A stretch of DNA of 51,202 nucleotides from contig JAUVXR010000018.1 in the NCBI GenBank assembly GCA_030603495.1, positions 1-51,202 on the forward strand, given 5' to 3'. A program made the position numbers and the translations under genes. Below are positions 19,741-28,509 of this stretch, piece by piece. Each line of letters begins with the position of its first letter. The stretch's first letter is position 1. The notes beneath the pieces were generated by a model, which was not told where the DNA came from, searched no databases, and saw nothing but the letters and a program-made list of their open reading frames with translations. The DNA comes from a bacterium (GTDB lineage Bacteria; Armatimonadota; Zipacnadia; Zipacnadales; Zipacnadaceae).

Positions 19741-20538
19741 TTACCTTCCCGTGGCTGCGGCCAGACCGGACACGAACTGGCCGACCTGCTCCAGCAGGGA
19801 ATCATCGTCCTGCACACTCGCGATCATGTTCACCACTGCGCTGCCCACGATCGCGCCGTCGGCTATCCGGCAGACTGCGGCGACCTGCTCAGGCGTGCTG
19901 ATGCCGAAGCCAACTGCCACCGGCAGGTCGGTAGCCTGGCGAATGCGCGCTACGGATTCGGCCAAGTCCGCGGGCAACTCGTCCTGGGCACCGGTCACGC
20001 CCGGGCGGGAGACGGCGTAGACAAAGCCGGTAGTGCGTTCGACAACCTCGCCGATACGCTCATCAGGGGTGGTAGGTGCCACAAGGAAGACCGTCGCCAG
20101 TCCGTGCTCAGCGGCAACAGCGCACCACTGGTCACTCTCGCTGGGCGGCAAGTCCGAGGCCAACACCCCGTCCACACCGACACGGGTAGCCTCCTCGGCG
20201 AAGGCCTCGGGGCCGTACTGGAGAATGGGGTTGAAGCAGGTCATAATGACCAGGGGGATTTGCGTGCGCTGGCGGATCTTCGCCACACAGTCGAAGACGC
20301 CCTGTACAGTCGCGCCGTGCTCCAGGGCCCGCTGGGAAGCCGCCTGGATAGTCGGGCCATCGGCAAGTGGATCAGAGTATGGAATGCCCACCTCCACAAT
20401 ATCCGCAGCGGACTGGGCCAGCGTGGCAACGATGTCCACTGTGGCGGCCAGGTCCGGGTCGCCGGCAGTTATATATATGATCAGCGTACCGCGCCCGGTA
20501 GCCCGGTTCGCGGCGAAGGCTTGCTGGACGGAATTCAT
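19741..20538 (-). CDS. trpA: Tryptophan synthase alpha chain
   Basis: A 265-residue TIM-barrel subunit that cleaves indole-3-glycerol phosphate to indole and glyceraldehyde 3-phosphate; indole is passed by tunnel to TrpB. LIIYITAGDPD carries the strand-2 signature, VEVGIPYSDPLADGPTIQ the catalytic acid region and family signature, and VDGVLASDLPP the second catalytic Asp. VSRPGVTGAQ and VAVGFGISTP are the phosphate-binding loops. Start at 20538 is supported by AAGGAGAT about ten bases upstream. The open frame further upstream is only translated palindromic repeat. It is last in the operon, separated from trpB by 135 bp containing two palindromes. Confidence 0.95.
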   Translation of the reverse strand: MNSVQQAFAANRATGRGTLIIYITAGDPDLAATVDIVATLAQSAADIVEVGIPYSDPLADGPTIQAASQRALEHGATVQGVFDCVAKIRQRTQIPLVIMTCFNPILQYGPEAFAEEATRVGVDGVLASDLPPSESDQWCAVAAEHGLATVFLVAPTTPDERIGEVVERTTGFVYAVSRPGVTGAQDELPADLAESVARIRQATDLPVAVGFGISTPEQVAAVCRIADGAIVGSAVVNMIASVQDDDSLLEQVGQFVSGLAAATGR

Positions 20539-20582
20539 TGGAGCACATATCTCCTTCAGCGGTGCGACAGTCCGTATCGGTA

Positions 20583-20657
20583 GGACAGGCGTCCCGCCTG
20601 TCCAGAAACCGACCACGGTATGCTTTGATGACCACCCGACAGGCGAGACGCCTGTCG
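20583..20657. repeat. Two palindromic repeat units in the trpB-trpA spacer
   Basis: Unit 1 (20583-20603) has arms GGACAGGCG and CGCCTGTCC around TCC. Unit 2 (20637-20657) has arms CGACAGGCG and CGCCTGTCG around AGA. Each is a perfect 9-bp stem with a 3-nt loop, and 33 bp lie between them. The same family occurs between trpC and trpB. Such units are common in intergenic DNA of Planctomycetes-like and Armatimonadota-like genomes, where they produce spurious GGTPVLP or RRDACPT peptides in annotations. They could form RNA hairpins that affect mRNA stability inside the operon. Confidence 0.85.
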
Positions 20658-20673
20658 TACTGAGGCAGACCGT

Positions 20674-21855
20674 CTACAGAAATGCCTTGACCTCGGCGGC
20701 GTCTTTGTCGCCCCGTCCGGATAGGTTGATCACCACGATCTCGTGTGCCTCGAACTGCCCGGCCATCTCCAGCGCCCACGCCACCGCATGCGCGCTTTCC
20801 AGCGCCGGTATTAAGCCCTCCAACTCGCTCAGGCGCCGGAAGGCCTGCAGCGCCTGCTCGTCGGTGACGGAGTCATAACGAGCCCGCCCCGTATCGCACA
20901 GGTAGGCGTGCTCGGGGCCGACCCCGGGGTAATCCAGCCCGGCAGCAACAGAGTGAGCGTTCCGGATCTGCCCATCCTGGTCCTGGAGGATATATGACGC
21001 CGACCCGTGCAGAACCCCGAAGCTTCCCGCGTTGAGCGGGGCGCTATGCTCACCAGTATGCAGCCCCCGCCCGGCCGCCTCCACGCCGATCAGCTCGACA
21101 CCTTCCTCCTCGATAAATGGATGGAAGATGCCGATGGCATTGGAGCCACCGCCCACACACGCCACCAGCTTGTCGGGCAGCCGGCCTTCCTTCTCCAAGC
21201 ACTGCTGTCTGACTTCCTTACCGATGATGCTTTGGAAATCACGGACTATCGTCGGGTACGGATGCGGCCCGCACACACTGCCCAGCAGGTAGTGGGTATG
21301 CTCGACGTTGGTCATCCAGTCGCGGATCGCCTCATTCAGAGCGTCCTTGAGTGTACCCTTGCCCGATTCGACCGGCTGCACCGTCGCGCCGAGCAGTTGC
21401 ATACAGAAGCAGTTAAGCGCCTGACGCCGGATATCCTCGACGCCCATATAGACGACCGTCTCCAGCCCGAAGAGAGCGCCGACTGTGGCGGTCGCTACGC
21501 CGTGCTGGCCGGCACCGGTCTCTGCGATCAAGCGGGGTTTGCCCATACGGCGAGCGAGCAACACCTGCCCCAGGCAATTGTTCAGCTTGTGCGCGCCGGT
21601 GTGGTTCAGGTCCTCGCGCTTCAGATAGATGCGCGCGCCGCACACCTCGCTCAGCCGCTCGGCAAAATACAGCGGCGTGGGCCTTCCCCCATACTCGCGA
21701 AAGTAATAGTCCAGTTCACGATGAAACTCCTCATCCGCTTTGGCCTCGTTGTATACCCCTTCCAGTTCTTCCAAAGCCGGCATCAATGTCTCCGGCACAT
21801 ATTGTCCGCCATATTGTCCAAATCGCCCGGGCTTCTCTTCAGTCGTGGTATCCAT
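20674..21855 (-). CDS. trpB: Tryptophan synthase beta chain
   Basis: A 393-residue PLP enzyme that joins indole and L-serine to tryptophan. [17 protein letters not shown] is the typical N-terminus. [11 protein letters not shown] contains Lys90, the expected Schiff-base lysine. [14 protein letters not shown] and [10 protein letters not shown] are the PLP phosphate and glycine-rich loops, and the tail NLSGRGDKD is the usual C-terminal signature. The open frame runs 58 codons further upstream, but that part is the palindromic repeat region, and the ATG at 21855 is the family start. It is the standard TrpB1 type that pairs with TrpA. Neighbours are trpC upstream (124-bp gap) and trpA downstream. 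Confidence 0.95.
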
Positions 21856-21886
21856 GCAAAGTCTCTCTTCCGTCCGAGCCGTAATA

Positions 21887-21976
21887 GGATAGCCGTCCTG
21901 CCTGTCCGAATACCGACGGGCGAGACGCCCGTCGTACCGCCATATCGAATCGGTAGGACAGGCGTCCCGCCTGTCC
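21887..21976. repeat. Three palindromic repeat units in the trpC-trpB spacer
   Basis: Unit A (21887-21907) is a degenerate copy. Unit B (21914-21934) has arms CGACGGGCG and CGCCCGTCG around AGA. Unit C (21956-21976) has arms GGACAGGCG and CGCCTGTCC around TCC and is identical to the first unit of the trpB-trpA spacer. Compared with the AGA-loop unit at 20637, unit B has A-to-G in the left arm and the matching T-to-C in the right arm, so pairing is kept. That is a compensatory change and argues that the folded form matters or that units are copied as palindromes. Confidence 0.85.
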
Positions 21977-21979
21977 CCG

Positions 21980-22783
21980 TCAATCTTTGTGCTTCGGTAC
22001 CCCCACAAACTCCCGAGTAGCCAGGTCAATCTGCTCGCTCTTCATCAAAGCACTGCCTACCAGCACAGCATCCACGCCCGCCGCTGCGACACGCTCGACA
22101 TCCGCGCGGCACGTAATGCCGCTCTCGCTGACCAGCAGCGCATTTTTGGGCGCAAGTGGAGCCAGCCGTTCCGTGGTCGCCAGGTCAATTTCCATAGTGG
22201 ACAGCTTGCGGTTGTTGATTCCGATAACCTCTGCCCCGATCTCCGCAGCCTGCGCCAGTTCCTCCTCATTGTGCACTTCGACCAGCGCGGTCATATTCAG
22301 CTCCCGCGTTAGATCGTACAGTACCCGCAGCATCCCCGGCTCCAGTATCGCAACGATGAGCAGGACCGCATCGGCCTCCAAGGCGCGGGACTCGTAAATC
22401 TGATAATCATCAAGAATGAAGTCTTTGCGCAGAATCGGCAGCGGAATTCGGCCCCGGGCGCGTGCGACGTAGTGCGGCTGCCCCTGGAAGTAGATCGCCT
22501 CGGTAAGTACGCTTATCGCTGCGCCGCCGCCCGCCACAAAGTCCTGAGCGATGGCCCTCGGGTCAAACCACAGCATCGGAAATTCGCCCTCGGAGGGGCT
22601 GGCTCGCTTGATCTCCGCAATCAGCGCCACATCCAGACCCTGAAGGGCCAAGGCAAAATCGCGCGGCGGCGCTATCTCAGGCAAGCGCTCCTGCAACATC
22701 ACCAGCGGCCGGTTCATCTTCTCAAGCGGGAGCTGACGACGCTTTTGTTCAACAATTTTGCCGAGAATCCCCGAGAGACCCAC
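21980..22783 (-). CDS. trpC: Indole-3-glycerol phosphate synthase
   Basis: A 267-residue TIM-barrel enzyme converting carboxyphenylaminodeoxyribulose 5-phosphate to indole-3-glycerol phosphate. The N-terminal [13 protein letters not shown] helix, [14 protein letters not shown] (catalytic Lys on strand 1), [31 protein letters not shown] and LVSESGI are all present in the expected order. VLVGSALM is the phosphate-binding end. The start is a GTG at 22783 with no strong ribosome binding site; the gene follows trpD by 24 bp and is probably coupled to it. It is not fused to trpF, which is found elsewhere in the window. Confidence 0.94.
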
Positions 22784-22807
22784 AATCAGTCAGCCTATGT
22801 CATTAGG

Positions 22808-23821
22808 TTATGCCGAGTTAGAGAACTCACGAAGGTCTTCAAGCTTGGTCAAGGCCGCGCCGCTGGCGACCGTCTCAGCCGCCTGCGCCACACCCTCCTG
22901 GACAGTTTCCGCCCTGCCTCCGACATAGATAGCCGCGCCGGCGTTGGCCACGACGATATCATAACGCGGGCCACCCTCGCCCTGCAAGACCCCCACAAGT
23001 ATTTCAGCTGACTCCTCCGGCGTACCGCCACTGATATCCTCGACGCTGGCGCGATCCAGCCCCAGGTCCTCGGGCATCAGAGTGTAGGTGCTGACCTCGC
23101 TGCCAGCAAGTTCAGCCACCACGGTCTCACCAAGTGTGGAGATCTCGTCCAAGCCGTCGCGGCCGTGCACGACTAGCGCCCGCTGGATGCCGAGCTGCTT
23201 GAGAGCTTGCGCGACCGGCTCAACCCACTCTTCAGCAAACACTCCGAGCAGTTGCCGTTGGGCGCCGGCCGGATTGGTCAGCGGTCCGAGCAGATTGAAG
23301 ACGGTACGAATCCCCATCTCACGCCGCGGCCCGATAGCGTACTTCATCGCCGGGTGCAGACTCGGGGCAAACAGGAAGCCGAAGCCAACCTCATCAAGAC
23401 ATCGTCCTACCGCGTCGGCGTCCAGAGTGATATTGACGCCCAGGGCCGCCAGCACGTCAGCGCTGCCACAGGCGCTGGAGACCGAACGGTTACCATGCTT
23501 GGCAATGGGAATGCCTGCCGCAGCGGCCACCAGGGCAGCACCGGTGGATATATTGAAGGTATCCAGCGCGTCGCCGCCGGTGCCACAGGTGTCCACCACG
23601 TCAGCCCGCTTGGTCTTGATGGGCAAGCAACTCCGGCGCATCGTACGGGCGAAGCCGCAGATCTCTTCGGGAGTCTCGCCCTTCATCCGCAGCGCCATCA
23701 GCAATGCGCCGATCTGGGCATCAGTGGCCTGCCCGCTCATAATGTAGCTGAGTATGTCTTCGCCTTGGGCCGCGGTCAGGTGCTCGCCGCGGCATAGCTT
23801 TTCCAAGGTAGCGGATATCAT
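22808..23821 (-). CDS. trpD: Anthranilate phosphoribosyltransferase
   Basis: A 337-residue enzyme that joins anthranilate to phosphoribosyl pyrophosphate. VDTCGTGGDALDTFNISTG is the glycine-rich PRPP-binding signature. AKHGNRSVSSACGSADVL follows with the KHGN and anthranilate contact residues, and IGPRREMGIRTVFNLLGPLTNP is the second family signature. Length is normal. The start at 23821 is supported by GGAGGAAG five bases upstream; a longer frame to 23887 would overlap trpG and lacks support. It is an independent gene, not fused to trpG as in enterobacteria. Confidence 0.95.
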   Translation of the reverse strand: MISATLEKLCRGEHLTAAQGEDILSYIMSGQATDAQIGALLMALRMKGETPEEICGFARTMRRSCLPIKTKRADVVDTCGTGGDALDTFNISTGAALVAAAAGIPIAKHGNRSVSSACGSADVLAALGVNITLDADAVGRCLDEVGFGFLFAPSLHPAMKYAIGPRREMGIRTVFNLLGPLTNPAGAQRQLLGVFAEEWVEPVAQALKQLGIQRALVVHGRDGLDEISTLGETVVAELAGSEVSTYTLMPEDLGLDRASVEDISGGTPEESAEILVGVLQGEGGPRYDIVVANAGAAIYVGGRAETVQEGVAQAAETVASGAALTKLEDLREFSNSA

Positions 23822-23846
23822 TGTCTTCCTCCATGCCTGATGTTGT

Positions 23847-24452
23847 CTACGTCCCAGCGCTAGCCGGCGACGCAGATTCCTTGTCACTCGCCAACGTCAA
23901 GAAACTCGACAGCAGATCCAGGCCGACCTCAGTCATCACCGACTCCGGGTGAAACTGCACCCCCTCCACGAAGTACTCCTGGTGGCGCAGGCCCATTATC
24001 TCGCCCTGATCCGTCTGGGCGGTGACTGCCAGACACTGGGGCACACTATCGGGCTGGACAATCAGCGAATGATACCGCACTGCCTCGAACGGATTCGGTA
24101 AGCCCGCGAACAGGCGCAATCCATCATGATGGATTAGTGAGGTCTTCCCGTGCATTAGCCGCTCCGCCTGCCCCACAGTTGCGCCGAATACCTCAGCAAT
24201 TGCCTGGTGCCCCAGGCAAACGCCCAGAATCGGCACCCGGTCGGCCGTCGCCTCGATAAGCTCGCAAGAGATACCGGCGTCCGCCGGGCGGCCCGGGCCA
24301 GGCGAGATGACGATGCTATCAGGCCGCATCTGCTGGATCTCTGTAACCGTGATCTTGTCGTTGCGGTAGACCTCGACCGCTTCGCCCAGGTAGGCCAGAT
24401 ACTGGTACAGGTTATAGGTGAACGAATCGTAGTTGTCAATCAGGATCGTCAT
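23847..24452 (-). CDS. trpG: Anthranilate synthase component II (glutamine amidotransferase)
   Basis: A 201-residue class I glutamine amidotransferase that supplies ammonia to TrpE. MTILIDNYDSFTYNLYQYL is the diagnostic N-terminus, SPGPGRPADAG the oxyanion-side loop, GVCLGHQAI contains the nucleophile Cys79, and GVQFHPESVMT carries the His-Glu pair of the triad. Its ATG overlaps the trpE stop by four bases (ATGA), so the two subunits are translationally coupled. The same subunit may also serve folate synthesis in genomes without a separate pabA; this cannot be judged here. Confidence 0.95.
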   Translation of the reverse strand: MTILIDNYDSFTYNLYQYLAYLGEAVEVYRNDKITVTEIQQMRPDSIVISPGPGRPADAGISCELIEATADRVPILGVCLGHQAIAEVFGATVGQAERLMHGKTSLIHHDGLRLFAGLPNPFEAVRYHSLIVQPDSVPQCLAVTAQTDQGEIMGLRHQEYFVEGVQFHPESVMTEVGLDLLSSFLTLASDKESASPASAGT

Positions 24453-25954
24453 ACCAGACCCTCCTCGGCCAAGCGCAGGGCCTCGAGCAAAGCTCCAGCC
24501 TTCGCCATGGTCTCGTCGTACTCGGCATCGGGGTCCGAGTCGGCGACGATTCCGCTGCCCACCTGCAGATAGGCCGTGTCACCCTTGACGACGAAGGTGC
24601 GCAGAGTAATGCAAGTATCCATCGCTCCCGAGAAGCTGAAGTAACCGATCGCTCCGCCGTACGGCCCGCGCTTGACCGGCTCAAGCTCCTCGATGATCTC
24701 CATTGCCCGGATCTTGGGAGCCCCGCTGACGGTGCCGGCTGGGAAAGCCGCCCGAAGCACATCGAATTGGTCTTTGTCTGCCTGAAGTCTACCCCGGACG
24801 TTGCTGACGATGTGCATCACGTGCGAGTAGCGCTCCACCGTCATCAGTTCGTCAACCTCCACACTACCGGGCTCGCAGACCCGCCCGATGTCGTTGCGAT
24901 GCAGGTCAACCAGCATGATGTGCTCAGCACACTCTTTCTCGTCGGCCAGCAGTTCCTCCTCCAGGCGCTGATCTTCGCTCTCTGTAGCGCCGCGGCGGCG
25001 GGTCCCCGCGATGGGACGGGTGATTATCTCACCCTTGTCCTCAGTGACCAGCACCTCCGGCGAGGCGCCGATGATCTTCAGATCACCGAAGCTCAGGTAG
25101 AACATATACGGCGAAGGATTGATGGCGCGCAGCGCCCGGTACAGGTCGAAGCTGTCGACACTTATCTTCGCACTCATCCGGTGCGCCAACACGACCTGGA
25201 TGATGTCGCCGGCCGTGATGTACTGCTTAGCCCGCCTGACCGCAGCGCGATGTTCGGCGCGTGTCATCGTTGACTGCAAGGCAGAGAGAGCGTCAGGGAT
25301 CCCCCCTTTGATCGCCGGCGGGGAGCGCTGCTCGACGGGCTGGCGGAGCGCGTCAATGACAGCTTCAATGCGCTCAGTCGCCTCCCAGTAAGCAGTCTGG
25401 GGATCACCCTGGATCTGGGCGTTGGCCAGGACTCGCACGCGGTTGAGCACGTGGTCGAATACCACGATCGTGTCCGTGAACATAAAGTAGCAGTCGGGCA
25501 GGTCCAGGTCATCACGGTTGGTGTCCGGGAGCTCCTCGAAAAAGCGGACCATATCGTAGCCGATATAGCCGACCGCACCGCCCGAGAACCGCTCCCAATC
25601 CGGCAGCGGCACGTACTGGTACTCACTCAGTAGCTCCCTGAGCTTATCGAGGGGATCCTGTCCACGGGGCAGTGTCTCGATCTTCTCTGCGCCATTGGTG
25701 ACGGTTGTCACCTGGTCCCCCTTGCTGTGGAAGAGCCGGTACGCATTGGTGGCCAGGTAAGAGTAGCGCGCGATGTTTTCGCCGCCGGTTACGCTTTCTA
25801 GTAGAAAGGCGAAGCCGCCGTTAGTGGCACGGAGCTTCAGGAACGCTGAGATCGGGGTCTCGAGGTCCGCGACTATCTCGCGATAAACCGGGACGAGATT
25901 CCCCCGCTCAGCACGCTTCATGAATTCGCTCAGGTCGGGCGTGTACATATTCAT
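24449..25954 (-). CDS. trpE: Anthranilate synthase component I
   Basis: A 501-residue chorismate-utilising enzyme that makes anthranilate from chorismate and ammonia. The N-terminal domain has LLESVTGGENIARYSYL, close to the L-L-E-S motif that binds feedback-inhibiting tryptophan. The catalytic C-terminal half contains SPEVLV, ITRPIAGTRRRG, DEKECAEHIMLVDLHRNDIG (active-site Glu and His), FPAGTVSGAPKIRAMEII and GPYGGAIGYF. Two ATGs (25954, 25948) are possible; I take the first, after GGAAAGG. It is first in the operon, about 435 nt downstream of the attenuator terminator. Both transcriptional attenuation and feedback inhibition are expected. Confidence 0.95.
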   Translation of the reverse strand: MNMYTPDLSEFMKRAERGNLVPVYREIVADLETPISAFLKLRATNGGFAFLLESVTGGENIARYSYLATNAYRLFHSKGDQVTTVTNGAEKIETLPRGQDPLDKLRELLSEYQYVPLPDWERFSGGAVGYIGYDMVRFFEELPDTNRDDLDLPDCYFMFTDTIVVFDHVLNRVRVLANAQIQGDPQTAYWEATERIEAVIDALRQPVEQRSPPAIKGGIPDALSALQSTMTRAEHRAAVRRAKQYITAGDIIQVVLAHRMSAKISVDSFDLYRALRAINPSPYMFYLSFGDLKIIGASPEVLVTEDKGEIITRPIAGTRRRGATESEDQRLEEELLADEKECAEHIMLVDLHRNDIGRVCEPGSVEVDELMTVERYSHVMHIVSNVRGRLQADKDQFDVLRAAFPAGTVSGAPKIRAMEIIEELEPVKRGPYGGAIGYFSFSGAMDTCITLRTFVVKGDTAYLQVGSGIVADSDPDAEYDETMAKAGALLEALRLAEEGLV

Positions 25955-26388
25955 CGGACCTTTCCTGCAGCTAATATGCTTGGCCAAAAGCCAGGCCATC
26001 GGTTAGAGCCGCCGGTACTCCTGTCCGCCAGGAGCACCGCGGGCAGGCTCCCGACTGCATTGTGTCCACAGTTCCCGCGGCCATGTTATCACCTCCCGAA
26101 CTTCTAGTCTATGCCGCCTGCTGCATGGCGGCGCTGGGGCAAGGGCTTGCCTGCGCAGAATCCGGGCTGTTGCGCCTGGGCGACCTCCGTCGCCGTTGCC
26201 TTCGCTCTCCCGCTCCGGCTGGCGGTTGTCCGGGCTATCCGCTCGGGCTTAGTCGGTGGGCCGAGGCGACCTCCGTCGCCCCTTCCGATGCTCTCCGGCG
26301 TCGGCTGGCGTCCCGACATTTCTGCCCTTCCCCATGTTGTCAAAACGAAAATGGCGAGCTGCGCTTTTGGAGCGCTGGCCCGCCACTG
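25955..26388 (-). other. Long untranslated stretch between the attenuator and trpE
   Basis: About 430 nt of transcribed leader without a recognisable gene. It contains two copies of a short palindromic repeat (listed separately) in otherwise GC-rich, irregular text. Small frames on both strands match nothing I know. The length is unusual, since an attenuator normally lies close before the first structural gene. Confidence 0.5.
26179..26280. repeat. Pair of GGCGAC-CTCC-GTCGCC palindromes in the trp leader
   Basis: Copies at 26179-26194 and 26265-26280 each have 6-bp arms GGCGAC and GTCGCC around CTCC. The following 30-35 bases (CTCTCC ... GGCTGGCG) are also similar, so the repeat unit is longer, roughly 50 bp and imperfect. 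The two copies are 86 bp apart. They are a different family from the GGACAGGCG repeats in the operon. Confidence 0.6.
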
Positions 26389-26431
26389 AAAACAAAAATC
26401 GCGGGCCGAGTTCTGGGTGAACTGACCCGCG
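26389..26431 (-). terminator. trp attenuator terminator (3:4 hairpin)
   Basis: On the minus strand CGCGGGTCAGTTC (26419-26431) folds onto GAACTCGGCCCGCG (26400-26413) around the 5-nt loop ACCCA (26414-26418): 6 bp of GC-rich base, a U-G and C-G pair, one bulged C, then 5 bp. ATTTTTGTTTT (26389-26399) follows at once. The left arm is also the partner of the antiterminator, so the two structures exclude each other. Confidence 0.88.
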
Positions 26432-26480
26432 TCGGATATTACTTGTGTTTAACTGCTGACACGCGCGAGGGTCAGTTCAC
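26417..26480 (-). promoter_or_regulatory. trp antiterminator (2:3) and pause (1:2) pairings
   Basis: On the minus strand GTGAACTGACCC (26469-26480) is a perfect 12-base complement of GGGTCAGTTCAC (26417-26428). This 2:3 pairing would take the left arm away from the terminator. Segment 2 also pairs with GGTTCAC (26484-26490), inside the last codons of the leader peptide, around the loop CTA, giving a 1:2 hairpin. Segment 2 starts at the last base of the leader stop codon, so a ribosome resting at the stop covers it and favours termination. A ribosome stalled at Trp codons 13-16 covers segment 1 and frees segment 2. Confidence 0.85.
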
Positions 26481-26536
26481 TAGGTGAACCAATACCACCA
26501 GCTAAACCAAACTTGGCCCGCCGTGTCGCGTTTCAT
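26480..26536 (-). CDS. trpL: trp operon leader peptide
   Basis: An 18-residue frame reads MKRDTAGQVWFSWWYWFT and ends in TAG at 26480-26482. Trp is at positions 10, 13, 14 and 16, four of eighteen residues, which is far above chance and is the signature of a ribosome-mediated attenuator. The promoter upstream places the transcription start at about 26539-26536, so the message has at most about three bases before the ATG. No ribosome binding site is possible and translation would have to be leaderless. The trpL of Sinorhizobium meliloti is known to be leaderless in the same way. The peptide overlaps segment 1 of the attenuator. When charged tRNA-Trp is scarce, stalling should allow read-through into trpE-G-D-C-B-A. 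Confidence 0.9.
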   Translation of the reverse strand: MKRDTAGQVWFSWWYWFT

Positions 26537-26545
26537 GGTGGGGTT

Positions 26546-26574
26546 AGTATAACGATTCCTGCCGGTCTTGTCAA
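26546..26574 (-). promoter_or_regulatory. trp operon promoter
   Basis: TTGACA (26569-26574) and TATACT (26546-26551) are separated by 17 bp on the minus strand. The distance from the -10 hexamer to the trpL ATG is nine bases, so transcription probably starts at the A at 26539 or at the ATG itself. No obvious TrpR-like operator palindrome overlaps it. Confidence 0.85.
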
Positions 26575-26890: not shown

Positions 26891-27217
26891 CTACCGCCGG
26901 CCGCGGCCGCCGCTGCGTCCACCGCCGGAGCCGCCACTACGTCCGCCACCGCCGTAACCGCCACCACGGCCACCGCTACTGCGGTCGGGTTTCGGACGCG
27001 CCTCGTTAACCTTCAGAATCGTGCCGCCGAGCTCCTGCCCATTGGTGGCATCGATAGCTGCCTGCATGTTCTCGGCGGGGAGATCCACGAACCCGAAGCC
27101 ATTGGCGCCGATGAGCCGGACCTCGGCTATCGGCCCGAAGGGCTCGAACAGCGTCCGGATCTCGCTCTCGGTGGCGGTGCGGGGCAGGTTGCCTACGTAC
27201 AGTGATTTGTTGGCCAA
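26891..27217 (-). CDS. RNA-binding protein with one RRM and a Gly/Arg-rich tail
   Basis: A 108-residue protein. Residues 4-76 form an RNA recognition motif: SLYVGNLPRTAT is RNP2, ANGFGFVDL is RNP1 with the two central aromatic residues kept, and the spacing is typical of the bacterial/cyanobacterial Rbp group. The tail (from about residue 80) is almost entirely Gly, Arg and Ser, ending GGRSGGRGRR, and should be disordered and bind RNA. The start is a TTG at 27217, chosen because AAGGAAGA lies seven bases upstream and homology begins there; no ATG is in frame. A 17-spacer promoter at 27378-27406 implies a leader of about 150 nt. In cyanobacteria such genes are often cold-induced; that is only an analogy here. 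Confidence 0.85.
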   Translation of the reverse strand: MANKSLYVGNLPRTATESEIRTLFEPFGPIAEVRLIGANGFGFVDLPAENMQAAIDATNGQELGGTILKVNEARPKPDRSSGGRGGGYGGGGRSGGSGGGRSGGRGRR

Positions 27218-27782: not shown

Positions 27783-27840
27783 GGGCTGGGGGAAGGATTT
27801 GGCGTGGTCAGCGATAATGTAATTGCAGAGGTGCAATGAT

Positions 27841-28509
27841 ATGCCCGTGGAGCTGAAGATATGTGGGCTGACGACGCTGCCAGATATGCGTATAGCCGAA
27901 GGCATCGGTGCAGACTATGTCGGGATGGTCGTCGAGGTGCCCTATTCGCGGCGCCCTATCAGCCGCTGGCAGGCCCAGGCCATGTGCCGAGCCGCCCGTG
28001 CCCGTCCCGCGCTGGTGGTGGCACAGCAGCCGCCTGACCAACTGGTTGAGATAGCTCGGCTGTGCAGCCCCTTTGCCCTGCAGGTGCACGGCGACGAATC
28101 AACTGAGCAGATCGGCGAGCTTGTCAAGCAGCTTACAGATGATACCGAAATCTGGCGGGGTATTGCCGTCGCGCCCAGCGATGAAGACCAGCTCCGATCT
28201 GTCGCTGAGCACCTGGCGCTTATAGAACAGCTTGTGCAGATCGGCGTGCGGCGCATCGTGCTCGACACTCGCGTGCAGGGCGAGATGGGTGGCACCGGCG
28301 TGACCTGTGACTGGGAGACTGCCGCGGCGATTATCAGAGACAGTCCCCTGTCCGTGATGCTCGCCGGCGGACTGGGACCGGACAACATCGTAGAAGCAAT
28401 TGAGGCTACCGGGGCAAGTGGCGTGGACATGGCCACAGGCGTCGAGTCCACCCCCGGCCGCAAAGACCCCGCCAAGCTGCGTGCCCTGGCCGCCGCTCTT
28501 CGGCAGTAG
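27841..28509 (+). CDS. trpF: Phosphoribosylanthranilate isomerase
   Basis: A 222-residue TIM-barrel enzyme that isomerises phosphoribosylanthranilate to the enol form used by TrpC. ELKICGLTTLPD carries the catalytic Cys8 in the K-I-C-G motif, ADYVGMVVEVPYSRRPIS is the second strand region, VLDTRVQGEMGGTG carries the catalytic Asp and phosphate loop, and MLAGGLGPDNI is the final phosphate-binding loop. GAGGTG seven bases upstream supports the ATG at 27841. The gene lies about 1.3 kb beyond the trp promoter on the opposite strand, so it is outside the attenuated operon. It is followed by a truncated 5'-nucleotidase gene. Confidence 0.93.
   Translation: MPVELKICGLTTLPDMRIAEGIGADYVGMVVEVPYSRRPISRWQAQAMCRAARARPALVVAQQPPDQLVEIARLCSPFALQVHGDESTEQIGELVKQLTDDTEIWRGIAVAPSDEDQLRSVAEHLALIEQLVQIGVRRIVLDTRVQGEMGGTGVTCDWETAAAIIRDSPLSVMLAGGLGPDNIVEAIEATGASGVDMATGVESTPGRKDPAKLRALAAALRQ

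Follow-up and report, generated by a model that had tools for sequence, protein, structure and literature searches.

The stretch of DNA that we analysed (the window; 51,202 nucleotides of contig JAUVXR010000018.1) carries a tryptophan operon on its minus strand, in the order trpE-trpG-trpD-trpC-trpB-trpA, behind a leader with a Trp-rich reading frame and two hairpins. The genome (2.67 Mb) belongs to the same family as G007, which itself matches a Candidatus Zipacnadia MAG contig (JALGVG010000038.1). Candidatus Zipacnadia is a class of Armatimonadota, and the shared family bears out the initial annotation, which had judged from the letters alone that the genome was of an Armatimonadota type. 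In the direction of transcription the features are:

26569-26574, minus strand: -35 hexamer TTGACA, identical in four members of the genus
26546-26551, minus strand: -10 hexamer TATACT after a 17-nt spacer, with a predicted +1 near 26539
26480-26536, minus strand: Trp leader peptide ORF (MKRDTAGQVWFSWWYWFT, then stop), conserved in the genus and without a Shine-Dalgarno sequence
26484-26490, minus strand: region 1 (GGTTCAC), which pairs with region 2 in the folds; both sides are changed in locus L085
26469-26480, minus strand: region 2 (GTGAACTGACCC), 5' strand of the antiterminator, from the inverted repeat and folds
26417-26430, minus strand: region 3 (GCGGGTCAGTTCAC), 3' strand of the antiterminator and 5' arm of terminator 1, from the inverted repeat and folds
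26401-26413, minus strand: region 4, 3' arm of terminator 1; its GGCCCGC (26407-26401) is complementary to region 5
26400-26431, minus strand: terminator hairpin 1 (-21.6 kcal/mol, z -4.9)
26389-26399, minus strand: U-run 1 (ATTTTTGTTTT)
26372-26383, minus strand: region 5, 5' arm of terminator 2; its GCGGGCC (26383-26377) pairs with region 4
26353-26364, minus strand: region 6, 3' arm of terminator 2, from the folds
26351-26386, minus strand: terminator hairpin 2, conserved in the genus (segment 26391-26341: -23.8 kcal/mol, z -4.6)
26342-26350, minus strand: U-run 2 (TTTCGTTTT)
24449-25954, minus strand: trpE, the first regulated gene, ATG at 25954 (TIGR00564, 586 bits, above the cut-off)
19741-24452, minus strand: trpG, trpD, trpC, trpB and trpA, from NCBIfam matches

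The trpF gene (27823-28509, plus strand) is not part of the operon: it is encoded on the opposite strand, and a gene for a small RRM RNA-binding protein (26891-27217, minus strand) lies between the two. A 54-bp direct repeat (26171-26224 and 26257-26310, 78% identical) lies between terminator 2 and trpE. This spacer is far shorter in loci L083 and L084, and therefore looks like expendable inserted sequence. Just upstream of trpE is a 37-codon ORF (25971-26084, minus strand) with a consensus Shine-Dalgarno sequence (GGAGGTGATAACATG). Four genus members retain both the start region of this ORF and a hairpin (GGUGCUCCUG/CAGGAGUACC), and in L084 and L085 the ORF runs beyond the trpE start; translational coupling to trpE is possible. 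In the nearest relative, L083 (G001:C148:4165-5706), the trpE match passes through one TGA stop.

The promoter and the leader peptide were as initially annotated, on the minus strand. The TTGACA-17-TATACT promoter scored 11/12, where 0.3 promoter-like sites are expected in the 1-kb region. The leader ORF has 18 codons, starts at ATG 26536, ends with TAG at 26482-26480 and carries four Trp codons, at positions 10, 13, 14 and 16. Only 9 nt separate the -10 hexamer from the ATG, from which we infer a 5' UTR of about 3 nt; a transcription start at A26539 would leave ACC 5' of the ATG. The leader ORF thus likely begins close to the 5' end of the predicted transcript. All four genus members place the ATG 9-10 nt from the -10 hexamer, and 15 of 39 leaders, spread over seven families, place it at 6-10 nt. 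This distance was mostly 13-14 nt in the leaders of family f5, and at least 18 nt in those of family f3 and a few others, some of which have a Shine-Dalgarno sequence. The L106, L107 and L133 leaders share a conserved AAGTGATA a few bases 5' of the leader ATG, and in these three a GTG in the same frame, 10 nt past the -10 hexamer, is a second candidate start.

The remaining parts of a ribosome-mediated attenuator claimed by the initial annotation were likewise all found on the minus strand. The antiterminator pairing, a perfect 12-bp inverted repeat (26480-26469 with 26428-26417), occurs once in the window and was not reproduced in any of 100 shuffles. Region 2 overlaps the leader ORF by a single base, the third of the stop codon. 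Terminator 1 is GC-rich and followed by its U-run, as had been described. The initial annotation had also proposed that the 1:2, 2:3 and 3:4 helices be scored by folding. The 2:3 segment was stable (-26.8 kcal/mol, z -4.5), and the isolated 1:2 segment was weak, no stronger than its shuffles (-10.9 kcal/mol, z -0.4). In constrained in silico folds 2:3 and 3:4 were mutually exclusive, and the position of the ribosome decided between them. With the ribosome held at W13 or W14, 2:3 formed and 3:4 did not; a ribosome placed on the stop codon covered region 2, and 3:4 formed. Stalls at W10 or W16 gave the terminator and no antiterminator, and W13-W14 are therefore probably the regulatory codons. 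Untranslated RNA adopted 2:3 in the folding model, which departs here from the classical scheme.

Taken together, the element almost certainly controls the trpEGDCBA operon as a ribosome-mediated attenuator. Translation of the 18-codon peptide would begin at the 5' end of the transcript or within about 3 nt of it. A ribosome short of charged tRNA-Trp would stall at W13-W14, so that 2:3 pairs and terminator 1 (3:4) is blocked. When Trp is plentiful, it would reach the stop codon and cover region 2, so that 3:4 forms and transcription terminates. We infer from this arrangement that the leader responds to Trp.

Conservation was followed first within the genus. Four members could be aligned from the promoter through the second terminator, and all four encode the peptide MKxDTxGxVWxSWWYW. 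In L085 stem 1:2 has been rebuilt by changes on both sides (GGTTCAC/GTGAACT to GGTCCC/GGGGCT). A search with the leader DNA outside the genus gave only matches of 20-31 nt (E about 0.08), and more distant relatives were therefore found through TrpE. Of 107 Armatimonadota regions upstream of trpE, 38 contained a leader ORF with three or more Trp within 7 codons; shuffles averaged 1.7 (maximum 5), and the reverse strand had none. The 107 regions are not independent, and this strict filter misses the real leaders of L086, L106, L107 and L133 and probably admits false ones at L130 and L158, so that the count of 38 is only indicative. The other trpE upstream regions among the 107, from many families, had no Trp leader by the strict filter. 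A terminator-like hairpin followed 39 of 40 leaders examined, and with crude segment limits the 2:3 pairing was stronger than about 95% of shuffles in 20 of 39. In family f5 the 2:3 helix was 100% paired over nine species; of its 11 pairs, 7 show one-sided and 1 two-sided variation. A conserved CUGGUUC/GAACCAG helix was first taken for 2:3 in this family, and the sequences show that the antiterminator is GCGAGUCGCUU/GGGCGGCUCGC. The comparison of related genomes that the initial annotation had set as a refuting test found conserved Trp codons and covarying stems.

In an AT-rich Armatimonadota genus (L202, L203 and L204) the 2:3 helix has 13 bp, hairpin 1 is untailed and the U-run of hairpin 2 abuts the AAGGAGG of trpE; the two strands of stem 1:2 flank the Trp codons, and this stem has a compensated change (TTCAT/ATGAA to TTCGT/ACGAA). 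Upstream of trpE in L054, from a record titled Deltaproteobacteria bacterium, a WWW leader is followed by two U-tailed hairpins, of which arm 4 (UCCCACGGUUU) complements arm 5 (AGGCCGUGGGA) by eye. The doubled layout may therefore occur outside Armatimonadota.

The attenuator reading of the initial annotation stood in its core parts, its switching folds and its conservation; it had left out the second terminator (26386-26351) and the probable coupling of this hairpin to the first. Hairpin 2 lies directly 3' of hairpin 1 and its U-run. A second terminator was seen at 6 of 6 loci checked in the window's own family (f1), at 5 of 5 f3 loci, at the f5 loci, at L111 and L117 and in the three f23 genomes. 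Both hairpins of the window have U-runs, and its layout is thus that of a double terminator.

Arms 4 and 5 of these paired hairpins are complementary to each other. The longest uninterrupted helix averaged 9.6 pairs for 4:5, 9.2 for 3:4, 9.1 for 5:6 and 7.5 for 3:6. Arm 4 combined with arm 5 of another family gave a mean of 7.7 pairs, and with a shuffled arm 5 a mean of 5.4. As background, roughly 450 kb of these genomes yielded 27 adjacent hairpin pairs, including two from the window's own trp leader; the 27 also averaged 5.4 pairs. The best background pair, at L214, was the only one with a 9-bp 4:5 helix; it is antisense to a long coding ORF and was set aside as a coincidence. In f1 the mean 4:5 energy was -19.2 kcal/mol versus -11.0 kcal/mol for 3:6, so that likeness between the hairpins alone does not explain the 4:5 complementarity. 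In f3 and f5 hairpins 1 and 2 do resemble each other, and part of the complementarity follows from that likeness. Pairing in f3 was 98.2% for 4:5, 92.7% for 3:4 and 93.8% for 5:6. Column 160 of arm 5 is invariant in this family; its partner in arm 6 mispairs in 4 of 5 species, and its partner in arm 4 always pairs. No excess of 4:5 covariation was found in f1, where the observed value was reached by 336 of 500 shuffles.

This complementarity suggests how the leader could govern both terminators. Once 2:3 has formed, arm 4 would be free and could capture arm 5 as it emerges, delaying 5:6 until the polymerase has passed. With arm 6 still to be transcribed, all 20 loci had 4:5 as their minimum-energy fold. 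Once arm 6 was included, 4:5 was the more stable pairing at 14 of the 20 loci; the window was not among them. At equilibrium the window favours 5:6 over 4:5 by 3.4 kcal/mol, and there the relay must therefore be kinetic. The heuristic barrier to the loss of 4:5 in the window was 9.3 kcal/mol; with an assumed rate constant of 1e6 per s this gives a half-life of roughly 2.5 s.

Terminator 2 may instead act independently, as a constitutive and partly efficient back-up against leakage that the leader does not switch. We consider this possible and the less probable arrangement. The 5:6 hairpin of the window stays the stable fold whichever ribosome state is imposed, the 4:5 helix there has only 7 pairs and 4:5 covariation in the window's family is not above chance, all of which fit a back-up. 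Such a terminator would, however, damp the operon even under starvation, and yet it is conserved. Nor does a back-up account easily for 4:5 exceeding 3:6 in f1 while unrelated hairpin pairs are far less complementary. Hairpin 1 has no good U-run at most f5 loci, at L111 and in 3 of 3 f23 genomes, and the second hairpin usually has one (L097 and L132, in f5, have poor U-runs behind both). With hairpin 1 untailed, the Trp signal can reach the terminator only through 2:3 and then 4:5; an independent terminator 2 would leave most f5 loci, L111 and f23 with no visible Trp control.

We therefore prefer the reading in which a near-leaderless ORF sets the 2:3/3:4 switch and terminator 2 is coupled to it through 4:5, and give it a probability of about 0.62. 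A relay across the two terminators is probable. We also lean, with a little less assurance, toward its broader form, in which one Trp leader peptide with a nearly leaderless ORF would govern two serial terminators in several Armatimonadota families by a pairing domino (2:3 and 4:5 versus 3:4 and 5:6).

Control of the operon by another RNA device (a T-box, TRAP binding or a riboswitch), with the Trp-rich ORF incidental, is very unlikely. Such a device would likewise show conserved hairpins, but the region has no Rfam match: in the window no family reached the gathering threshold, none was meaningful at E up to 10 and no T-box was matched, and eight related loci had no match at E up to 1. Trp codons also recur across the phylum far above shuffles, and region 2 begins exactly at the stop codon of the ORF. 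GC-rich DNA commonly has short ORFs and GC-rich hairpins, but a chance combination of ORF, inverted repeat and hairpins is a negligible prospect given a 12-bp repeat that the shuffles never yielded and an architecture kept in four genus members and recurring in other families.

Before a 2010 survey found His leaders in Firmicutes, leader-peptide systems had by its own account been demonstrated only in Proteobacteria and Actinobacteria (PMC2965389), and our literature search found nothing linking Armatimonadota with attenuators. In many Armatimonadota families Trp leaders recur, and a large share of these leaders seem to be leaderless or close to it. This phylum has single-terminator, double-terminator and his-type relay forms side by side, and the evolution of multi-segment attenuators is thus open to study by comparison and with reporter mutants.

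The classical reference is trpL of E. coli, with a Trp-rich leader peptide, mutually exclusive 1:2, 2:3 and 3:4 helices and a terminator before trpE. The window resembles it in the Trp-rich peptide, the exclusive helices and the terminator ahead of trpE. It differs in a probably near-leaderless start without a Shine-Dalgarno sequence, in a second terminator with a 5' arm complementary to region 4 and in having no Rfam match. In the enteric his leader the relay logic, AB, CD and EF versus BC and DE, is established. Its AB, CD and EF hairpins and the alternative DE have been described (PMC10989985). The f23, L111 and most f5 leaders have the same three-hairpin layout with an untailed middle hairpin. 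Leaders of the window's genus differ from it in carrying Trp and not His codons and in having U-runs on both the middle and the last hairpins; the non-terminator middle hairpin of the his type is thus seen in most f5 loci, L111 and f23, and hairpin 1 of the window carries a U-run.

Leaderless trp leaders have been reported upstream of trpE in Sinorhizobium meliloti, whose trpL transcript begins at the start codon (PMC7298713), and in Streptomyces lividans, whose trpL1 transcript does the same and encodes 18 amino acids with WWW (PMC8079986). The window shares with both a Trp leader before trpE, and with trpL1 also the length of 18 residues. They belong to other phyla, no likeness of the peptides was seen beyond Trp, and their starts come from transcript data, whereas that of the window is predicted. 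A leaderless trp leader is therefore no novelty in itself; what would be new is where it occurs. The trp attenuators of the actinobacteria Corynebacterium and Streptomyces, again from a different phylum, are classical ones with double or triple UGG codons that occur outside Proteobacteria, and the passages describing them mention no tandem terminators (PMC1262725). The Salmonella mgtCBR leader combines two attenuation elements (PMC3641672), but these have two ORFs and different signals (proline and ATP), whereas in the window a single ORF precedes two hairpins. Attenuation of trp is itself already known; the new part would be the his-like relay topology applied to trp, which in the window appears to run across two real terminators.
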